37,234 bases of DNA from Planctomycetaceae bacterium. Its GTDB lineage: Bacteria; Planctomycetota; Planctomycetia; Planctomycetales; Planctomycetaceae. How positions within the stretch are numbered: the stretch's first letter is position 1; the number at the start of each line of letters is the position of its first letter. This document shows positions 8,494 through 18,541 of the stretch, one piece after another. Location of the stretch: the NCBI GenBank assembly GCA_002726205.1, contig PBSL01000006.1:99206-136439 (forward strand). The letters run 5' to 3'. The position numbers and the translations under genes were made by a program. A model generated the notes under the pieces. It worked only from the letters and a program-made list of their open reading frames with translations. It was not told where the DNA came from and did not search any database.

Positions 8494-10901
8494 TCACCGG
8501 ATGACTTGGCCTTGGCCGCCGGCTTCGCCGGCAAGGCCTTGATCCAACGGGTGACCAGATCGACGGCGCGGTGATCGAGCCGCACGGTTGCCAGCTGGGG
8601 CATCTGGCCGCGACCACGCCGGGCGATCCGTTTCAACAGCACCGAACGGCCCGGATCCCCCGGGGCGACAATGCGTGCGTTGGGGATCTTGAACTTGTCG
8701 TGAACCGGCAAGGCATCGATGACTTTTCCACCAGCGATCGGCTTGGCGAAATCGAGGTCCATCTGCGAGTTCCCGCCGCCGGCGCCGACATGGCACTGGG
8801 CACAATTGGCGTGCAGGTAGGACCTCACTCTCAGTTCCAGCTCCGGCCCCTCCTGGTAAGGGCTGACCAGATGCGGTTTCGAAGCCAATGTTCCGGAAAG
8901 CACTTTTCCGGCCTCTAACTGAACCTGATAGTCGGCAAGCGTCTTCTTTACGGCCGCCTCCCCGAGCCCTTTGGCTTTGAGCTTTTTCTGGTACCTCGCC
9001 GCGAGTTCCGCTCTGGTATCTAGGGGCAGAATCCCCAGGTTCTTGAGCAGGCTGAGCTGATTGACCGCCACACCCCCGTGAACATGGTCGCGATTCATCT
9101 GCACCGTGGTGAGGCCAAGCACGTACTGGGCAGCCCGCGAGTGGCAAACCATGCATTCGGCGCGGGCCGGGAAGTGGTAGGGCAACTTCATGAAACTCCC
9201 TTTCGGCCCGGCGACCACAAATTCACGATCTCGCCCCTGCGCATCCACCAGAGTCGCCTCGGTCTGCTCGCGGTTCCATTCGTATGAGTACCCCACCCAT
9301 TCTCCCTGTTCCCGGTACAGCAGGCGGGTTTCGACCCAGCGATCCCGAGGTTTGCCATCCACGTCCAGGACCAACGAAAAGGACTTGACCAGCACGGTCC
9401 CGTCCGGAAATGTCCACCCGCGGGTATCTCCACCGGGACTGATCGCCCCGACGACTGGTTTCCGCTGCTTGTCCCTGGTCACCGTCATCGCGATGTAGCG
9501 ATGCTTGACGGCCCCATCCGACCACAACGGCGCATTGACCGAGTAAGGAATCACCGCCGGGTGCACACGGTGACCTTTGACCGAAGCAAACAGTCCCGTC
9601 TGGCTGAGTTTGCGAGGAAACTCGGTGGCCGTCTTCGCTGACGGCGGAGAACGTCTCAGAGCATAGAAGGGAGCCGGTTTACGATAGTCGACAACCAGCA
9701 GGTTTCCCGCAGCATCCTGGCCAAACCCGACGATCTGCAGCGCCGTATCAGCAATCTCCTTGTGCCAGGCGACCTTGTCACCGTCCATCTTGCCCGCCCA
9801 GATCTTGCCGGTCGAATAGTCGCCGTAGATGTAGGCCCCGTGAAGTTCCGGGAATTCCTTTCCCGTGTAAACCACACCACCGGTCATCGAACGGGCTTCA
9901 GAGTGAGGATGCTCGAAGGTCGGCTTCACATGCGGAGCCGGCCCGAGCTTGCGCTGCAGATAAAACGGATGCGAGCCCTCGTAGACGCTCCATCCAAAGT
10001 TGTCACCCCTGTGAACCAGGTAGATCTGTTCCCAGAGATCCTGGCCGTTGTTTCCCACCCAGATGTTGCCCGTCAGTGGATCCACCGAAAGCCGCCAGGG
10101 GTTGCGGAGACCAAATGCCCAGGTTTCCGGGCGAATCCCTTTGCGACCGACGAATGGATTGTCTTTGGGGACCGCGTACGTCTTGCCCTTGGGGGGATGG
10201 TCAATGTCGATCCTCAACACCTTCGCCAGCAGGTGATCCATACCCTGGCCGGTCACGTTCGTGTCGGAATCGGACGTCCCGTCACCGGAGGTGATGTAGA
10301 GCATTCCATCGTGCCCAAACCCGATCGCCGCGCCGTTGTGACCATTGGAATCCCAGGAGAGAATGATGCGGGCTGAGTCCTTGACGACGGAAAACCCCTT
10401 GCCAGGATCCAGTCGCAACTCGGTCACCGTGCATTCCTTGCCACTGGGAGTCTTCGCAGACCGATCACCTCCCAGGTACAAACGGCCGTTTTCCCGGAAC
10501 TTCGGATGGACGGCCAGGCTGTAGGCGATTCCGGGATTGGTGAACAAAACATCCAGCTTCCCCGTCGCCGGATCGTCGCCAGTCCGGCACAATCGCTTGC
10601 CTCCCTTGTCGAGAAACAGCAGACGCGAACTGCCCGGTTGCCGCATCACGAACATCGGGTTCTCCATCGCCAGTTTCGGATACACCGCGACGACACCAAA
10701 GGGCAGGGGGGGGTCCGGTCGACCGACGACCCGGCTTTCGAGACTCGCCAGGCTCCTTTTGAGGGTCTGCACCGCGGCGGGAACCGGCACGATCCCCTTT
10801 TCGTCGGCGACGGCCCAAGAAGCAATCAACAGCAATGGCACCAGGGCCAGCAAACCACGGCACGGCATCGATCTGTTCCACATGAGGTGAGGTGACGTCA
10901 C
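8490..10901 (-). CDS. PQQ-dependent sugar dehydrogenase (GSDH type) fused to a C-terminal dihaem cytochrome module
   Basis: An 803-residue exported protein. The start at 10901 has GGAG six bases upstream; ATGs at 10883 and 10868 are alternatives. A signal peptide ends near SWAVA. Residues about 55-420 match the glucose/sorbosone dehydrogenase propeller: the HNGA block with the likely catalytic His188, the LYITSGDGT block, FGLRNPWR, and GDNFGWSVYEG. Residues about 430-800 resemble the HNE_0200/SO2930-type cytochrome domain (FPRKLSQTGLF, then PYSVNAPLWSDGAVKHRYI) and contain CMVCH (583-587) and CAQCH (700-704). In this family PQQ oxidises a sugar or alcohol; the fused haems would be the electron exit. 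Substrate unknown. It is divergent from the sulfatase and overlaps the upstream convergent gene by four bases. Confidence 0.9.
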   Translation of the reverse strand: MTSPHLMWNRSMPCRGLLALVPLLLIASWAVADEKGIVPVPAAVQTLKRSLASLESRVVGRPDPPLPFGVVAVYPKLAMENPMFVMRQPGSSRLLFLDKGGKRLCRTGDDPATGKLDVLFTNPGIAYSLAVHPKFRENGRLYLGGDRSAKTPSGKECTVTELRLDPGKGFSVVKDSARIILSWDSNGHNGAAIGFGHDGMLYITSGDGTSDSDTNVTGQGMDHLLAKVLRIDIDHPPKGKTYAVPKDNPFVGRKGIRPETWAFGLRNPWRLSVDPLTGNIWVGNNGQDLWEQIYLVHRGDNFGWSVYEGSHPFYLQRKLGPAPHVKPTFEHPHSEARSMTGGVVYTGKEFPELHGAYIYGDYSTGKIWAGKMDGDKVAWHKEIADTALQIVGFGQDAAGNLLVVDYRKPAPFYALRRSPPSAKTATEFPRKLSQTGLFASVKGHRVHPAVIPYSVNAPLWSDGAVKHRYIAMTVTRDKQRKPVVGAISPGGDTRGWTFPDGTVLVKSFSLVLDVDGKPRDRWVETRLLYREQGEWVGYSYEWNREQTEATLVDAQGRDREFVVAGPKGSFMKLPYHFPARAECMVCHSRAAQYVLGLTTVQMNRDHVHGGVAVNQLSLLKNLGILPLDTRAELAARYQKKLKAKGLGEAAVKKTLADYQVQLEAGKVLSGTLASKPHLVSPYQEGPELELRVRSYLHANCAQCHVGAGGGNSQMDLDFAKPIAGGKVIDALPVHDKFKIPNARIVAPGDPGRSVLLKRIARRGRGQMPQLATVRLDHRAVDLVTRWIKALPAKPAAKAKSSGD

Positions 10902-10987
10902 ATCCTACGCTCCATTCCGTTTGCTGCCCACCCGACCGTTGCTATGCTGAGCGTGTTCTGACATTCCCGTCTACTGGATTGGCCCAC

Positions 10988-12496
10988 ATGCCCGACAAGA
11001 CCATCCGGCTCCCGGTCCTCAGAGTCGTCTGCGGCTTCTGGTATGCACTTCTGGTCTTCTCGGCCGTCCCGGGTTTGCTGAGCCCGCAGCACTGCCACGC
11101 CGGCCCGCGGCTCAACGTCGTCCTGATCACAGTCGACGACATGAATTGCGATTCTGTTGGCGTTTTCGGCTGCCCGATCCCAGGGATCACACCTCACATC
11201 GATCGCCTCGCCAGTCAGGGCCTGCGTTTCGAACATGCTCACGTCACGATCGCCATCTGCCAGCCCACCCGCGCCGTCTGGATGACCGGCCGGTTCCCCC
11301 ATCGAAGCGGCGCACTGGGTTTCGACCCCATCCGTACGGGAGTTCCCACCCTGCTGGAAGCCCTCAAAGCAGGCGGTTACTACACCGGGATCCTCGCCAA
11401 GGTATCGCACGTGGTTCCAACTCGCGGATCACACTGGGACCTGGTTGTTCAGGCAAAACAACTCAAGACCGGTCGGGACCCAAAGCTCTACCACGCCCAC
11501 ACCGTCCGTTTCCTGAAGCAGGCGGCCGCCGCCAACCGCCCCTTCTTCCTCATGGCCAATTCACAGGATCCTCATCGCCCGTTTGCGGGAAGCCAACAGG
11601 AACGTAATCGCAAGCGACCACGCAAGAAGCGTCGCAAGGACCAGCCCAAAAAGGCCAAGGCGAAAAAGACCTTTGCGGCGATTCCTCGAACGTTCACCGC
11701 CCGGGAAGTCCCTGTCCCGGGATTTCTGCCGGACCTGCCTTCGATTCGTCAGGAGCTCTCCGAGTATTATGCTTCGGTCCATCGCGCCGACCAGATCGTC
11801 GGCAGCGTTCTGCGGGCCCTCGACGAAGCCGGAGTTCGTGACAACACGCTCGTGATGTTCTTGTCCGACCACGGCATGCCGCTGCCCTTTGCCAAGACCA
11901 ATTGCTGGCGGCACTCGACCCGAACTCCCTGGATCGTCCGCTGGCCCGGAACCGTGAAACCCGGTCAACACGATCGTCACCACATGGTCGGCGGAATTGA
12001 CTTGGCGCCGACCATCCTGGCCGCCGTTGGACTGCCACCGCTGGCAGACATCGATGGCCGCTCTTTCGTTCCAGTTCTTCGGGGAAGTTCGCAGACCGGA
12101 CGCGATCACGTGATCACTCACATCAACCGCACGGCCGGCAAACGTGAGTTCCCGATGCGATCTGTCATCGAACGCCGCTTCGGGTACATCTTCAACGCCT
12201 GGTCCGATGGGAAAACCACATTTCGCAACGAGTCACAGTCGGGCCTGACGATGAACGCGATGAAGAAGGCCGCGGCCGACAACCCGCAGATCGCGGCCCG
12301 GGTTCGCCTGTTTCTTCATCGCACAGCCGAAGAACTTTACGACTACAAGAACGACCCCGACGCGCTTCGCAACCTGGTCGACGATCCATCGCACCGACAG
12401 ACTCTGCGTCGCCTCCGCCGGCAACTACAACAACACATGACCCTGACCAACGACCCTCAACTGGCCGCTTTCCGACGCCAGCTACAGTCGCCCTGA
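10988..12496 (+). CDS. Secreted sulfatase (formylglycine type)
   Basis: A 502-residue member of the arylsulfatase family. The ATG at 10988 is chosen because it gives a signal peptide (MPDKTIRL, then a hydrophobic run); an upstream in-frame ATG at 10892 would overlap the divergent gene. Metal-binding D50 D51 lie in the LITVDDM block. The formylglycine motif is CQPTR at 91-95, with Cys91 the residue converted to formylglycine, followed by AVWMTG. Later blocks fit the family: ILAKVSH, LVMFLSDHGMPLPFAK, TPWIVRWPG, GGIDLAPTILA and ELYDYKNDPDALRNL. It should hydrolyse sulfate esters, probably on a polysaccharide, in the periplasm or outside the cell. Residues about 204-230 form a strongly basic Lys/Arg insertion that is unusual for the family. 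A sulfatase-maturing enzyme is not in the window. Confidence 0.93.
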   Translation: MPDKTIRLPVLRVVCGFWYALLVFSAVPGLLSPQHCHAGPRLNVVLITVDDMNCDSVGVFGCPIPGITPHIDRLASQGLRFEHAHVTIAICQPTRAVWMTGRFPHRSGALGFDPIRTGVPTLLEALKAGGYYTGILAKVSHVVPTRGSHWDLVVQAKQLKTGRDPKLYHAHTVRFLKQAAAANRPFFLMANSQDPHRPFAGSQQERNRKRPRKKRRKDQPKKAKAKKTFAAIPRTFTAREVPVPGFLPDLPSIRQELSEYYASVHRADQIVGSVLRALDEAGVRDNTLVMFLSDHGMPLPFAKTNCWRHSTRTPWIVRWPGTVKPGQHDRHHMVGGIDLAPTILAAVGLPPLADIDGRSFVPVLRGSSQTGRDHVITHINRTAGKREFPMRSVIERRFGYIFNAWSDGKTTFRNESQSGLTMNAMKKAAADNPQIAARVRLFLHRTAEELYDYKNDPDALRNLVDDPSHRQTLRRLRRQLQQHMTLTNDPQLAAFRRQLQSP

Positions 12497-13394: not shown

Positions 13395-16300
13395 TCAGGA
13401 GTTCGACAGTTCGAGCGTCGACACCAGCCCCTCGACGAAACGACTGTGCTGTTCGATTTCTGCTGCCAATCGCTCGCCACAATCTAACCGTCGTGCCAGG
13501 AATGGGAATTCCCCGTCTGTCTCCAACGGGACCGCCAGGTCACGCGCGTCACCGCGGACAACTCGCAGCGCGTCGATCAGCCGTCGTTGGAACACGTACG
13601 CGGCGCGCAGCAGCCGCCACGTCGCCTGATCGAGAATCCCTGTTTCGCCCAGTGTATCGATTGCCCGCAGCGTGTTGGTTGTCCGCAGGCTCGCTTCTCG
13701 CCCACCGTGAACCAACTGCAACCCCTGGACGAAGTACTCGATATCGACCAGTCCCCCCGGGCTGAGCTTCGCGTTGAATGTGCCGGGCCGGACAAGTTGC
13801 CGAATCTGCCGATCTCTCATCGCTCTCATGGCGGCCACGTCAAAACAGGCCGGCTGATAAATACACTCGTCACGGACGCCTTCGAGTCTGCTCCCGAGAG
13901 TCGCGTCGCCCGCCACCGCTCTCATTTTCACCAGCGCCTGACGTTCGAAAGGCCAGGCGGGACCATCCTCATGATAGTACGCAGCGAATGCCGAGATGGA
14001 ACTCGCCAGGGGTCCCGCCTGGCCATGCGGCCGCAGCCTCAGATCCAGCTCAAAGACACCCGCACGATGCGCCACGATTATCTTCGGCAATCTTGCCATT
14101 ACCCGACGGTAGAATTCAGCCGCAGACACGTCGCCGGCTCCGGCCGACCGACTGTCGTCATACACGCAGACCAACTCGATGTCGGAGGCAAACCCGAGTT
14201 CCTGTCCCCCGAATTTCCCCAAGCCGCAGATCGACACGACCGCGGGTGGCTCCATTCCCAACGACTCGCTCAGTTCCCGACAACACAACTCCAGCGCCTC
14301 GGCGATCACGATTTCCGCCAGGTCACCCAGTTCTGCCGAGAATTGCCCGAAGCCGCGTCCTGGCCAGGCAATGTGCCGCATGTCGGCAACGAACATCTCG
14401 CGATCCTTGAACGCGTTCAGACATTCGACGCGGCCCTGGCTGGTTTCGCACCGACCGAGATCGTCTCGGAGTTCGACTTCGAGTTCGTAGCGGTCTCGCG
14501 ATTGCCGCACCGCTTCAACATCGGCCAACAGGGGAAAGAGATTTTCGTGCTGCAGCCGCAGACAATCCTGCCACAGGAATGCGCTGACACCCAGCACTCG
14601 CGCCAGCGCCACCAGGACTTTCGGGTCTTCAAGCGAGGCCACTCGCGTGGTCCAATCGTCCAGTTTGAGCAGACCCACCAGAAGTTCCCGGAACTGCCTG
14701 AGCGCCCGTTCCGGATTCGGCGAGTGGGGCAGCAGATGAGTGAAATGCTTGATCAGCACCACCATTGTCTTCAATTCCTGCAACCGCAGGGGGTCCCTCA
14801 ACTTGCCCCCATCCTTGTCGACGACCTCGAGGCGATCGCGAACCCGTTCCCCTCGGGTTTCGACGACAACCTGTCGAATACTGATTCCCGCCAGCGACAG
14901 TGCGTGTGCGCACTCGTAAAGAAAACCCGTGGTGTCATCAGCGCGGATCGTGAGCACGGTCGTTTCGGCGGACGTCTCATTGTCGATTTCAATTTCCACC
15001 GGCAGCAGACTTGTCGTCGGTTCAGAGGCGCGGGGGACGTGATCCGCAACGCTTCTCGTCAAACAGGCAAACGCCTCTTCTTGCGACCCCGACTTCATTC
15101 GGTCCATGTGATTGACGATGTCGCCGTGATAGCCCGCCCACAGAACATCCCACTCGACCTCAGCAGGAACCGACACCTGGAACGTGTCGACACAACGCGA
15201 TGGGCCATCACCCACGTCGATGGTCACGACATGCCCACTGACAATATCGACACCGTGCACGACCAGCAGCCCGCAGATTGCCGACAGGAGTCCAGGCCCG
15301 TCGAAGGCCACAATCGTCACTTCGGCCCTGTCTTCTTCGAGGCGAACCGGTTCGACGACCACCGACCCGAAGCGTTCCAGTTCCGCCAACAATCGCTGGT
15401 GTCCGGCTCTTTGCCGTGAATCGTAGACCTCGAGATAGTGTGGTTCGATCAGCTCCACGTCTATGGCCCTGTCCACGGCAGCGGACGATGGTTCTCCAAG
15501 AATTCTCTCGAACACTTCCCGGATCTCCCTGGAATGTTCGACGTAGTGAGTGACGAACTGTTCGGCGTCTGGAAAATCGAGTCGCCGGGCCAGGTAGGTC
15601 AATTCTCCGTCGTCTTCCGGTAGGGTGTGGACCTGCTTGTTGTGCATCAGTTGCAGTGAATGCTCGATTGCCCGTAACAGGAGATAGCCCGTCGAGAGCT
15701 TGCGGTACTCGTCGGAACGCAGACAGCCAGCTGCGGCAAGAGCCGCCAGTGAACGCAGTGTGTTTGTGTCGAGAATTGCCGGGTGATCCTGGGCATGGCG
15801 GAGTTGCAGGTATTGCGTCACGAATTCGATGTCACGAATCGAACCGACTCCTGACTTCACCTCGGCCCAATCTCGTCCCCGGCGAGGCAAGGCCACCTCG
15901 ATCCGGCGCTTCATCTCCCGAATCGTCTGCGCCTGTTCGTTCTTGCCGTATTCCACCAATCGGCGGTTCACATCGGCCAGAAAGGCGTTACCAAGGTCCA
16001 TATCGCCGGCAATCACCCTGGCCTTGACCATCGCCTGCAACTCCCAGGGTGATGCCTGCGTATCAAGATACTCACGGTACGCCACCACGTCACAAACCAA
16101 TGGCCCCGACGCTCCCCAGGGTCGCAACCGCATGTCGACCCGGTAGAGAAATCCTTCGGAGGTCGTTCTGCCGAGTTCTCTGACCAATTGTTGGCCGATC
16201 CGCACCACTTCCATAGCGGATGACTCACCGAGAAACACCAGGTCGATGTCCGAGCTGTAATTGAGCTCCTCGCCACCGAGTTTCCCAAGGGCAAGGACAG

Positions 16301-16991
16301 CGAAACCGGCGGGGGCTGCGGGAGTGTCCACGGGCAGGCCTTCTGCGCCGTCTGATTCGACCAGTAATTCCAGCAATGCCTGGACCGTCGCGTCCGCCAG
16401 TAGCGACAACTGCAAGGTGACTCGCTTCAGGTCCATCAGCCCGAAGCAATCACAAGCAGCAATCCTCAGGACTTCCCAGCGTTGGATGCGTCTGACCGCA
16501 TCGAAACGCTCTGTTCCGGGCATGCCCGAGGCGGCCTTTCGCATGTCTTGTAGAAACTCGCCGCGATCACGAACTTCCGACAGGTGCCGGGATTCGGTCA
16601 ACCGTTCGAGGAACTCGGGGTGTTTCAGCAGCAATTCCGTCAGAAACTGGCTGTTGACAAACAACCGCACCAGCATCTCGATCGCCCGCGGCCGCTGCTC
16701 GAGAAGAGCGAACAACGCCGCGGGTTGGTTCCAGTTGCAGACGCAGCGGAAGAAGTTGCGTAACGACGTCTCGGGAGCAGCCGTCTGCGACATCGTGGCC
16801 AGCAGAAATGCGAGCATCTCACCCGACACGCAGCCCTTGCCAGCGACCTCGACCACCGACTCCCACTTTGACAACGCCGCACCAGGATCGGGAAACCCCA
16901 TATCCTTCATCGACGCAACAACACGGGTTCTCCGCGCCGGGTCGCCCGGGATGTCGGCCCGCAACAGCCAGTCGGCCGTTTGCTTGTACAT
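13395..16991 (-). CDS. glnE: Glutamine synthetase adenylyltransferase/adenylyl-removing enzyme with an internal ACT-domain pair
   Basis: A 1198-residue GlnE (the E. coli enzyme is 946). The ATG at 16991 is chosen for AGGAG seven bases upstream. The N-terminal nucleotidyltransferase half carries GKLGGEELNYSSDIDL with D248 and D250, followed by a helical domain (VKSGVGSIRDIEFVTQYLQL). The C-terminal half carries GKFGGQELGFASDIEL with D937 and E939, followed by KLSPGGLVDIEYFVQGLQL. Between the halves, at about 555-625 and 674-740, are two ACT-like domains (VTIVAFDGPGLLSAICGLL and LTIRADDTTGFLYECAHAL), similar in sequence and order to the C-terminal ACT pair of GlnD. Known function: reversible adenylylation of glutamine synthetase under PII and glutamine control. 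Inference: the ACT pair senses glutamine directly. It lies 37 bases downstream of an LRR lipoprotein gene. Confidence 0.93.
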   Translation of the reverse strand: MYKQTADWLLRADIPGDPARRTRVVASMKDMGFPDPGAALSKWESVVEVAGKGCVSGEMLAFLLATMSQTAAPETSLRNFFRCVCNWNQPAALFALLEQRPRAIEMLVRLFVNSQFLTELLLKHPEFLERLTESRHLSEVRDRGEFLQDMRKAASGMPGTERFDAVRRIQRWEVLRIAACDCFGLMDLKRVTLQLSLLADATVQALLELLVESDGAEGLPVDTPAAPAGFAVLALGKLGGEELNYSSDIDLVFLGESSAMEVVRIGQQLVRELGRTTSEGFLYRVDMRLRPWGASGPLVCDVVAYREYLDTQASPWELQAMVKARVIAGDMDLGNAFLADVNRRLVEYGKNEQAQTIREMKRRIEVALPRRGRDWAEVKSGVGSIRDIEFVTQYLQLRHAQDHPAILDTNTLRSLAALAAAGCLRSDEYRKLSTGYLLLRAIEHSLQLMHNKQVHTLPEDDGELTYLARRLDFPDAEQFVTHYVEHSREIREVFERILGEPSSAAVDRAIDVELIEPHYLEVYDSRQRAGHQRLLAELERFGSVVVEPVRLEEDRAEVTIVAFDGPGLLSAICGLLVVHGVDIVSGHVVTIDVGDGPSRCVDTFQVSVPAEVEWDVLWAGYHGDIVNHMDRMKSGSQEEAFACLTRSVADHVPRASEPTTSLLPVEIEIDNETSAETTVLTIRADDTTGFLYECAHALSLAGISIRQVVVETRGERVRDRLEVVDKDGGKLRDPLRLQELKTMVVLIKHFTHLLPHSPNPERALRQFRELLVGLLKLDDWTTRVASLEDPKVLVALARVLGVSAFLWQDCLRLQHENLFPLLADVEAVRQSRDRYELEVELRDDLGRCETSQGRVECLNAFKDREMFVADMRHIAWPGRGFGQFSAELGDLAEIVIAEALELCCRELSESLGMEPPAVVSICGLGKFGGQELGFASDIELVCVYDDSRSAGAGDVSAAEFYRRVMARLPKIIVAHRAGVFELDLRLRPHGQAGPLASSISAFAAYYHEDGPAWPFERQALVKMRAVAGDATLGSRLEGVRDECIYQPACFDVAAMRAMRDRQIRQLVRPGTFNAKLSPGGLVDIEYFVQGLQLVHGGREASLRTTNTLRAIDTLGETGILDQATWRLLRAAYVFQRRLIDALRVVRGDARDLAVPLETDGEFPFLARRLDCGERLAAEIEQHSRFVEGLVSTLELSNS

Positions 16992-17028: not shown

Positions 17029-18372
17029 TCAGCGCTTGACGACACAGTCGGGTACCGCCGCCTCGAATCTGGCAACGGCCTCGTCGCTGATTTCGGTAAA
17101 ACTGAGGTTGAGAGCTTTCAACGCTGCCAGTCGTTCCAGGTCTTTCAGACCGGCGTCGCTGATCATCGTGCGCGAGAGATTCAATGTCTCCAGCGATTCC
17201 ACGAGTTGTTTCAAGCCAGCATCGGTCACCTGTGTCTCCTCCAGGTTCAACCACTTCAGTTCACTCATACCGGCAAGGTGCTCCAGGCCCTTGTCGGACA
17301 CCTGGGAGAACCAGAGATTGAGCCGTCGCAGTTTCTTCAGAGGCGCCAGCAGCGCGAGCGCCTTGTCATCGACTTGTGTTTCACTCAGATCAAGACGCTC
17401 GAGATTTCCGGCGGCCGAGAGGTGCTTCAAGCCTGGCCCGACCACCGCGGTGTCTCGCAGGTTGAGTGTCTTCAGTGCCGTCATTGCAGCCAGTACCTCA
17501 AGCCCTTTGTCGGTGATCCCGGTCCGAAACAGATTGATCTCGCGCAATTTCGTCAGCCGTGCGAGATGAACAATCCCCTCGTCAGTGATCGCCGTATCTT
17601 CGAGTACCAATGAGGTCAACTCTCTCAAATCCCGGATCGACTCCAGGCCCTGGTCACTCACTTGCGGGTTTCTCAGCTTCAAGCTCCGCAAGGATCCGAG
17701 CTTGCCGAGAAAGGCCAGGCCCTCATCGGTGATCTGGACACACCCGCGAACATCGATCAGCTTCAGCTTCTTCAGGCCAACCAGGTGAGACAGCGCGACG
17801 TCAGTGAGGTTGGTATACAGCAGGTGCAGTTGCTCGAGTCCTGCGATTCTCGCCACATCGCCCAATCCGGTGTCGGTAATGTTGGAGCACCGTCTGAGGT
17901 TCAGTGATTTCAGCCCATTCATCGTGCCGACCGTCTTCAGCCCCTTGTCGGTCAGTTCTGTGTTCTCGAGTCCCAGATTGGTCACGGTCTTCAACTTTGC
18001 CAGTTCGGCCACACTGGCATCGGTGATGTTTGATCCCCAGAGTTTCAGGTCGCGCAACCCCTGCAACGTCGCCAACAACGCCACCTGGTCGTCTCCGAAC
18101 GGGCATTCGGTCAAATCGACTGATATCACGGCGCCGTCCAATCGGGTCCAGCGCCCACCCGCAGCGTCGATCGCATCGACGGCGGGCTGTTCTCGTCGCT
18201 TACGGTCCGCAGCCGTCTTCTTCTTGTCGACCGCTACCCCGGGAGAAACCGTCTTCTGCTCGCCAAGCTCGTTCGTGACCGTCTCGGAATCCGACTGGTC
18301 CTTCGAACATCCTGCCAGGACGACAATGACCAACAGCCCACATAGCCCCGGGAACATTCGCGCACGTGCCAT
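17029..18372 (-). CDS. Leucine-rich-repeat lipoprotein
   Basis: A 447-residue lipoprotein. ATG 18372 has AGGAAGG nine bases upstream; a GTG at 18396 is less likely. The N-terminus has a hydrophobic segment and lipobox LAGC with Cys22 as the lipidated residue. A short charged region follows (about 23-80). The remainder is about 14 leucine-rich repeats of roughly 24 residues built on the pattern LxxLxLxxTxITDxGLxxL, for example GLKSLNLRRCSNITDTGL and ALKTLNLRDTAVVGPGL. It ends with FEAAVPDCVVKR. Such LRR proteins are common in Planctomycetes and are presumed to bind proteins or other ligands at the membrane. It precedes glnE on the same strand with a 37-base gap, so co-transcription is likely, although a functional link is not obvious. 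Confidence 0.88.
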   Translation of the reverse strand: MARARMFPGLCGLLVIVVLAGCSKDQSDSETVTNELGEQKTVSPGVAVDKKKTAADRKRREQPAVDAIDAAGGRWTRLDGAVISVDLTECPFGDDQVALLATLQGLRDLKLWGSNITDASVAELAKLKTVTNLGLENTELTDKGLKTVGTMNGLKSLNLRRCSNITDTGLGDVARIAGLEQLHLLYTNLTDVALSHLVGLKKLKLIDVRGCVQITDEGLAFLGKLGSLRSLKLRNPQVSDQGLESIRDLRELTSLVLEDTAITDEGIVHLARLTKLREINLFRTGITDKGLEVLAAMTALKTLNLRDTAVVGPGLKHLSAAGNLERLDLSETQVDDKALALLAPLKKLRRLNLWFSQVSDKGLEHLAGMSELKWLNLEETQVTDAGLKQLVESLETLNLSRTMISDAGLKDLERLAALKALNLSFTEISDEAVARFEAAVPDCVVKR

Positions 18373-18541
18373 CGTCTTTAGCCTTCCTGCCCCCACCGAC
18401 CATCGTAGTTTTCTGCTTCAGCCCACGCCGGCCTGGGGCCATTCGCCGGACCGGGTCGTCCTCAAGACTAGTGCTCACCGCGGACCAAGGCAACGAACGC
18501 CTGCACGCTCTGCGGGAATCCAGAAACGCGAGCACGCTGAG

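Follow-up and report, generated by a model that had tools for sequence, protein, structure and literature searches.

A GlnE lineage with a GlnD-type tandem ACT pair ahead of its C-terminal nucleotidyltransferase half

In the textbook GlnD-PII-GlnE signaling circuit, a bicyclic cascade, two modifying enzymes act through one carrier protein. We analyzed a 37,234-nucleotide stretch of DNA from a Planctomycetaceae bacterium (GCA_002726205.1, contig PBSL01000006.1; the whole stretch is called the window below), and found that its glnE gene encodes a GlnE with a tandem pair of ACT domains between its N-terminal and C-terminal nucleotidyltransferase halves (AT-N and AT-C). The ACT-bearing GlnE, noticed in a sequence-only reading of the window, was confirmed. 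On balance, we favor the view that the protein belongs to a GlnE lineage whose AT-C carries its own regulatory GlnD-type tandem ACT pair, which would bind an amino acid and be coupled to AT-C.

The whole coding sequence of glnE lies at positions 13395-16991 on the minus strand, as do all of its elements given below. It encodes 1198 residues from an ATG without an internal stop; this start is not certain, because the frame remains open upstream to a TTG at 17075. Both catalytic halves are present, in line with the sequence-only reading. The protein contains two stretches matching GlnE (PF03710, 339 bits in total) and two matching GlnD_UR_UTase (PF08335, 130 bits), and thus has the two nucleotidyltransferase halves, each followed by a GlnD_UR_UTase domain, that mark members of the GlnE family. 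AT-N (residues 1-500; 15492-16991), whose E. coli counterpart deadenylylates, contains the best PF03710 stretch at residues 105-339 and PF08335 at 358-497, and groups with other AT-N halves in our tree. AT-C (residues 777-1198; 13398-14663), whose E. coli counterpart adenylylates, contains the second stretches of both families and falls in one clade with other ACT-linked AT-C halves. In the alignment, the metal motif expected to read D-x-D in GlnE is D248-x-D250 in AT-N (16242-16250) and D937-x-E939 in AT-C (14175-14183), where classical GlnE has D-x-D. The window protein barely passed the NCBIfam GlnE model PRK11072 (491.4 bits versus a cut-off of 487), and databases name ACT-bearing GlnE proteins as ordinary GlnE. 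Like E. coli GlnE, it consists of AT-N followed by AT-C, homologous nucleotidyltransferase halves that each bear a GlnD_UR_UTase helical domain; unlike E. coli GlnE (946 residues, no ACT pair), it has a GlnD-type ACT pair before AT-C and a D-x-E motif in AT-C. The additional length, which had been attributed to the ACT pair, comes partly from it, but the family alignment showed that an N-terminal extension and helical stretches contribute as well. GlnD also has a tandem ACT pair, at its C-terminus, and the two pairs agree in both sequence and order. However, the GlnD architecture of a nucleotidyltransferase followed by HD and two ACT domains differs from that of the window protein, which has no HD domain among its Pfam matches and carries the pair ahead of a catalytic half.

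The region between the halves consists of ACT1, including an edge strand and the helices that follow the domain (residues 544-649; 15045-15362) and ACT2 (residues 666-756; 14724-14996). Pfam assigned ACT (PF01842) to residues 678-730 above the cut-off (29.2 versus 27 bits), and ACT1 alone gave a weak match (PF13291 at 556-600, 18 bits versus a cut-off of 27). In Pfam and NCBIfam, the best full-length relatives of the region were the C-termini of GlnD models: NF003467 matched with an E-value of 1.1e-29 (best stretch 491-744), far under its whole-protein cut-off, and TIGR01693 with 2.4e-23 (515-742; 82.3 bits versus a cut-off of 519.4), in its ACT part only. We also compared profiles of 30 GlnE inserts and 35 GlnD C-termini with hhalign, and the pairs aligned over 180 columns with 99.85% probability and an E-value of 7.8e-31. 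By domain, ACT2 matched GlnD ACT2 at 6e-26 and ACT1 matched GlnD ACT1 at 3e-10, while the crosswise values were 6e-5 for GlnE ACT1 with GlnD ACT2 and 2e-10 for GlnE ACT2 with GlnD ACT1 (all E-values are for single comparisons). Because ACT1 and ACT2 each match their own GlnD counterpart best, the domain order in GlnE is that of GlnD. These matches support the assignment of the pair as GlnD-type rather than just any ACT. Its most likely origin is acquisition of the whole pair at once from a GlnD-like protein, since the pair-to-pair match keeps the GlnD order, and we infer that the transfer ran from the GlnD-like protein to GlnE. The GlnD-like pair proposed from the sequence therefore held in sequence, order, and location between the halves; its span is a little wider, at about 544-756 instead of about 555-740.

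The AlphaFold model of residues 515-775 (82 sequences) had a predicted local distance difference test score (pLDDT) of 94.1 and a predicted template modeling score (pTM) of 0.91. The predicted pair comprises two ACT units, each a strand followed by strand-helix-strand-strand-helix. Thus, the two folds foreseen in the sequence-only reading as beta-alpha-beta-beta-alpha-beta are present, but the extra edge strand stands before each unit and not after it. The full-length model contained the same elements at about 544-756. Among the best matches in a fold search of solved structures were tandem ACT regulatory domains, including those of aspartate kinase (Z score 10.8, root-mean-square deviation 5.7, 163 residues aligned) and of threonine deaminase with isoleucine (Z score 8.3, root-mean-square deviation 3.5, 138 residues aligned); unrelated proteins such as biotin ligases and microcompartment proteins were matched at lower scores, and ACT proteins were matched weakly when the full-length model was used. 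By sequence alone, no solved structure stood out as an ACT relative (best E-value 0.055), whereas the fold search did find such relatives. The two regulatory domains resemble the pair in having adjacent ACT units in one chain, but share only 11-15% identity over the aligned residues and belong to other enzymes with other ligands. The plant ACR proteins (ACR9 and ACR11) likewise have GlnD-like ACT repeats, although a passage of PMC3173338 describes them as plant proteins without a nucleotidyltransferase. ACT2 of the relatives exceeded the cut-off of the Pfam family ACT_ACR9_3rd, whereas that of the window protein stayed below it.

A survey of GlnE architectures across Planctomycetota showed that the window protein is no isolated case. 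The arrangement AT-N-ACT-ACT-AT-C was present in 28 of 28 drawn genomes of the window's family (f1), and outside this family, in sister families and elsewhere, all 24 planctomycete GlnE inspected had two halves and no ACT pair. Altogether, 154 of 392 drawn planctomycete genomes matched the window protein, GlnD matches included. A scan with the ACT region over one genome per species yielded 188 confirmed stretches, of which the best 80 were kept. These best 80 of 188 comprise 46 labelled Chloroflexota or Fraserbacteria, including the isolate Anaerolinea thermolimosa IMO-1 of the Chloroflexota, and 34 planctomycetes, including Gimesia and Schlesneria. All 80 loci contained a GlnE frame, and AT-N, the ACT pair, and AT-C were visible in 77 of them (75 simple, two with a split AT-C match); the remaining three are cut by record ends, leaving two ACT-AT-C frames (L088 and L111) and one AT-N-ACT frame (L108). 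Among 201 Chloroflexota genomes drawn as a sample, six had GlnE-type matches, of which three were full length and three ACT-ACT-AT-C; another two matches came from ACT domains of GlnD.

Reduced and permuted forms revealed that the pair travels with AT-C. ACT-ACT-AT-C without AT-N in front was found in six genomes (G077, G111, G037, G556, G416, and G540), five of which were counted as stand-alone because the frame in G540 runs into a contig end. When the genomes with ACT-ACT-AT-C were searched in full with an AT-N profile, each yielded no half other than this one. The loci of reduced GlnE whose genomes have no detectable AT-N at another site are L189, L186, L188, L252, and L190. In L188 and L252, the C-terminal tail gives a weak match to the beginning of the AT-N profile (29 and 14 bits), and the frame in G037 has an upstream extension of about 400 residues without recognizable domains, which looks non-coding. 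In G290, a single frame of 1281 residues (L191:4293-8135, minus strand) encodes GlnE in permuted form, arranged as ACT-ACT-AT-C-AT-N.

From 100 halves we constructed a quick maximum-likelihood tree, with support from the Shimodaira-Hasegawa-like approximate likelihood ratio test (SH-aLRT) only and with long end branches for L192_Nact and L261_Cnon. The AT-N and AT-C halves separated, and the window-type halves grouped with AT-N and AT-C of E. coli, respectively. All 28 ACT-linked AT-C halves formed one clade (SH-aLRT 100) on a long stem of 0.67 changes per column. Of the ACT-type AT-N halves, 20 of 21 formed one clade (SH-aLRT 98), and AT-N of the permuted protein and that of L192 were placed among classical AT-N halves. 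The metal motif of AT-C reads D-x-E in 27 of the 28 ACT-linked halves (the exception is L027) versus D-x-D in 25 of 25 classical halves in the alignment, and D-x-E is possibly a marker of the ACT-linked lineage. Because the pair stays with AT-C, and these AT-C halves form a single clade with the D-x-E motif, the protein seems better described as a separate type of AT-C that brings its own sensor and in most cases follows an AT-N than as a GlnE with a loose insertion. A passage of a review (PMC12409994) assigns AMPylation to the C-terminal half and deAMPylation to the N-terminal half.

We then placed these proteins in the rest of the circuit. GlnD and PII were counted over 79 genomes, namely the 46 Chloroflexota/Fraserbacteria carriers, 22 of the 28 f1 genomes, six other planctomycetes, and five additional Chloroflexota. 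Not included in these counts are the 34 planctomycete loci among the best 80; four were tested separately, and all four had GlnD. The completeness of the genomes behind the best 80 loci is not given, and hence some absences of GlnD or PII may be gaps in draft genomes. In the window's genome, amtB, glnB, and glnD are clustered on another contig, and GlnD is full with two ACT domains. Since AmtB, PII, and a full GlnD are all present, the usual cascade exists in this organism, and the shortened nitrogen cascade suggested in the sequence-only reading does not apply to it. The idea is plausible in the relatives: GlnD exceeded the model cut-off in none of the 46 Chloroflexota/Fraserbacteria carriers, and canonical PII (E-value below 1e-20) was found in only 10, with weak PII-family matches (about 1e-7 to 1e-3) in 14 and none in 22. 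Their GlnD-model matches at E-values up to 1e-15 came from HD-domain proteins or from the ACT pair of GlnE. In A. thermolimosa, whose GlnE just misses the PRK11072 cut-off, the two weak PII-family matches were a cyclic-di-AMP receptor and a PII-like frame of 158 residues. The latter frame (L234:387-860, minus strand) adjoins a transporter-like frame. Among planctomycete carriers outside f1, GlnD was found in G200, G280, and G004; G077 and G111 had PII without GlnD, and G037 and G290 had neither.

As controls, the GlnD model detected GlnD in other Chloroflexota (G484, with G564 and G548 below the cut-off) and, above the cut-off, in 26 of 55 planctomycete genomes, and the PII model was positive in all but one of the 14 named controls. 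In the 201-genome Chloroflexota sample, GlnD exceeded the cut-off in one genome and was recognizable below it in two more. None of the matching genomes in this sample had GlnE and GlnD together, but they are too few to establish mutual exclusivity. Regarding the target of GlnE, glnA was located in the retrieved flank (at most 6 kb) of at least 18 of the 46 Chloroflexota/Fraserbacteria loci, a minimum because several loci are short, and of none of the 34 planctomycete loci. In A. thermolimosa, glnE is divergent from a row of antiporter, amtB, and glnA genes. Of 30 glutamine synthetases in the alignment, 29 have the tyrosine at the adenylylation site (Tyr398 of the E. coli precursor). The window's genome has this target tyrosine in L221, one of its three glutamine synthetase matches and the only one examined for the residue.

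Conservation of the ACT loops was counted over 82 aligned sequences, 42 planctomycete and 40 other. G574, D686, and G689 were invariant (82/82), and D564, G567, F690, Y692, E693, and D719 were nearly invariant, in both groups alike. The conserved ACT residues lie in or beside the first strand-helix loop, which reads D564-x-x-G567 in ACT1 (15291-15302; D564 in 78/82 and G567 in 79/82) and D686-T-x-G689-F-L-Y-E693 in ACT2 (14913-14936; E693 in 80/82). According to passages of PMC3173338, the near-invariant glycine of ACT domains at the strand-helix loop coincides with ligand binding, and the ACT domains of GlnD are its glutamine sensor; a review, in the part available (PMC4285133), gives GlnD a single glutamine site. 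The ACT pair in GlnE would bind an amino acid, most likely glutamine. When glutamine is plentiful, binding to the pair would act on AT-C, and glutamine synthetase would be adenylylated and thereby switched off; when glutamine is scarce, AT-N would release glutamine synthetase. In the window's organism, the ACT-bearing GlnE may serve as a direct input alongside GlnD and PII, and in the Chloroflexota carriers without GlnD and PII it may be the main nitrogen input. A bolder proposal, to which we give slightly less than an even chance, is that in such Chloroflexota (e.g. A. thermolimosa) the ACT-bearing GlnE alone replaces the GlnD-PII-GlnE cascade, reads glutamine via a borrowed GlnD sensor, and itself governs how far glutamine synthetase is adenylylated, that the forms lacking AT-N are a single sensor-plus-writer enzyme, and that ACT-ACT-AT-C is a separable module joined to AT-N in two orders.

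Several observations weigh against a regulatory pair coupled to AT-C or against its replacing the cascade. The domain arrangement in the full-length model was uncertain (pTM 0.48). All 22 f1 genomes tested keep GlnD (21 above the cut-off and G361 just under it) and PII, and therefore the ACT pair is no replacement there. E. coli GlnE, which has no ACT domains, is described in a passage of PMC5448240 as having its own allosteric glutamine site beside the sites for the PII forms; direct glutamine input to GlnE is thus not new as such. The change from D to E in the AT-C motif raises a question about the chemistry of the ACT-linked AT-C, whose adenylylating activity is therefore putative. GlnD absence was also found with classical GlnE. 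The 55 planctomycete control genomes include five without GlnE, one (G111) of the ACT type, and 49 taken as classical, the classical architecture having been checked directly for 24 planctomycete GlnE and deduced from match positions for the rest of the 49. Of these 49, 20 had no GlnD match at an E-value of 1e-15, which weakened the idea that GlnD absence marks ACT-bearing GlnE and means that such absence alone is no proof of replacement. PII exceeded the cut-off in 18 of these 20, and presumably is not uridylylated by a standard GlnD there. Among the genomes examined, GlnE with neither GlnD nor canonical PII was common only in carriers of the ACT type. G013, G022, G042, G045, G066, and other planctomycetes have an ACT-less GlnE and PII with no GlnD match. 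Finally, the DRPG loop of GlnD is not retained in the ACT-bearing GlnE, which has D-T-x-G in ACT2 and D-x-x-G in ACT1, and the ligand may therefore differ from that of GlnD.

This last point leads to the alternative that survives best, in which the pair is a true sensor of a ligand other than glutamine, such as glutamate, glycine, alanine, or another end product, and GlnE is fed back by amino-acid supply. Amino acids of many kinds are ligands of ACT domains, those of the closest solved structures being isoleucine, arginine, and aspartate-family products, and the altered loop of ACT2 has gained the near-invariant E693. However, the nearest profile relatives are the ACT pair of GlnD in the same order, and GlnE acts on the glutamine-making step; we thus regard a different ligand as unlikely, if well worth considering. 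It is more doubtful still that the pair has lost ligand binding and become a spacer, a dimer interface, or a site where PII or glutamine synthetase docks. The pair, flanked by two catalytic halves, could be a linker, and PII is available as a partner in the window's genome, but in G077, G111, G037, G556, G416, and G290 the pair stands at the N-terminus without a preceding AT-N and hence is not merely a spacer between halves; moreover, the loop residues stay conserved, and 22 of the 46 Chloroflexota/Fraserbacteria carriers have no PII-family match. Least probable, to the point of being improbable outright, is that the ACT-linked AT-C has changed its reaction or substrate and is no longer a glutamine synthetase adenylyltransferase, as its D-x-E motif and long stem might suggest, because it clusters with AT-C and not with AT-N or GlnD, glnA is nearby in 18 of the 46 Chloroflexota-type loci, the target tyrosine is retained in 29 of 30 aligned sequences, and an Asp-to-Glu change in this metal motif is tolerated in nucleotidyltransferases.

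If the favored reading of an AT-C regulated by its own ACT pair is correct, a GlnE equipped with the sensor of GlnD would show how such a circuit can collapse or acquire parallel wiring, and would account for how adenylylation of glutamine synthetase could still be controlled in bacteria without GlnD or PII. The stand-alone ACT-ACT-AT-C would be a small soluble enzyme for asking whether an ACT pair switches a nucleotidyltransferase, and would also bear on the glutamine sensing of GlnD itself. We found no description of ACT domains in GlnE in the open full-text literature of PubMed Central, a scope mostly without subscription journals.

In planctomycete GlnD (L150, L272-L279, L288, and others, from the class that holds the window's genome), the DRPG loop is lost in ACT1 and mostly kept in ACT2. 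We considered whether GlnD lost its sensor where GlnE gained one and rejected this, as the degenerate ACT1 loop seen in GlnD of the window's family also occurs in sister families f2-f5. This comparison covered nine GlnD sequences (L272-L279 and L288), with the GlnE type determined for seven of the nine genomes. Since the degenerate loop is found in sister families with classical GlnE too, the change follows the group and not the GlnE type. In the window itself, none of the eight frames scanned around glnE is a nitrogen gene; its neighbors encode a leucine-rich-repeat protein (17032-18396) and a sulfatase (10892-12493).

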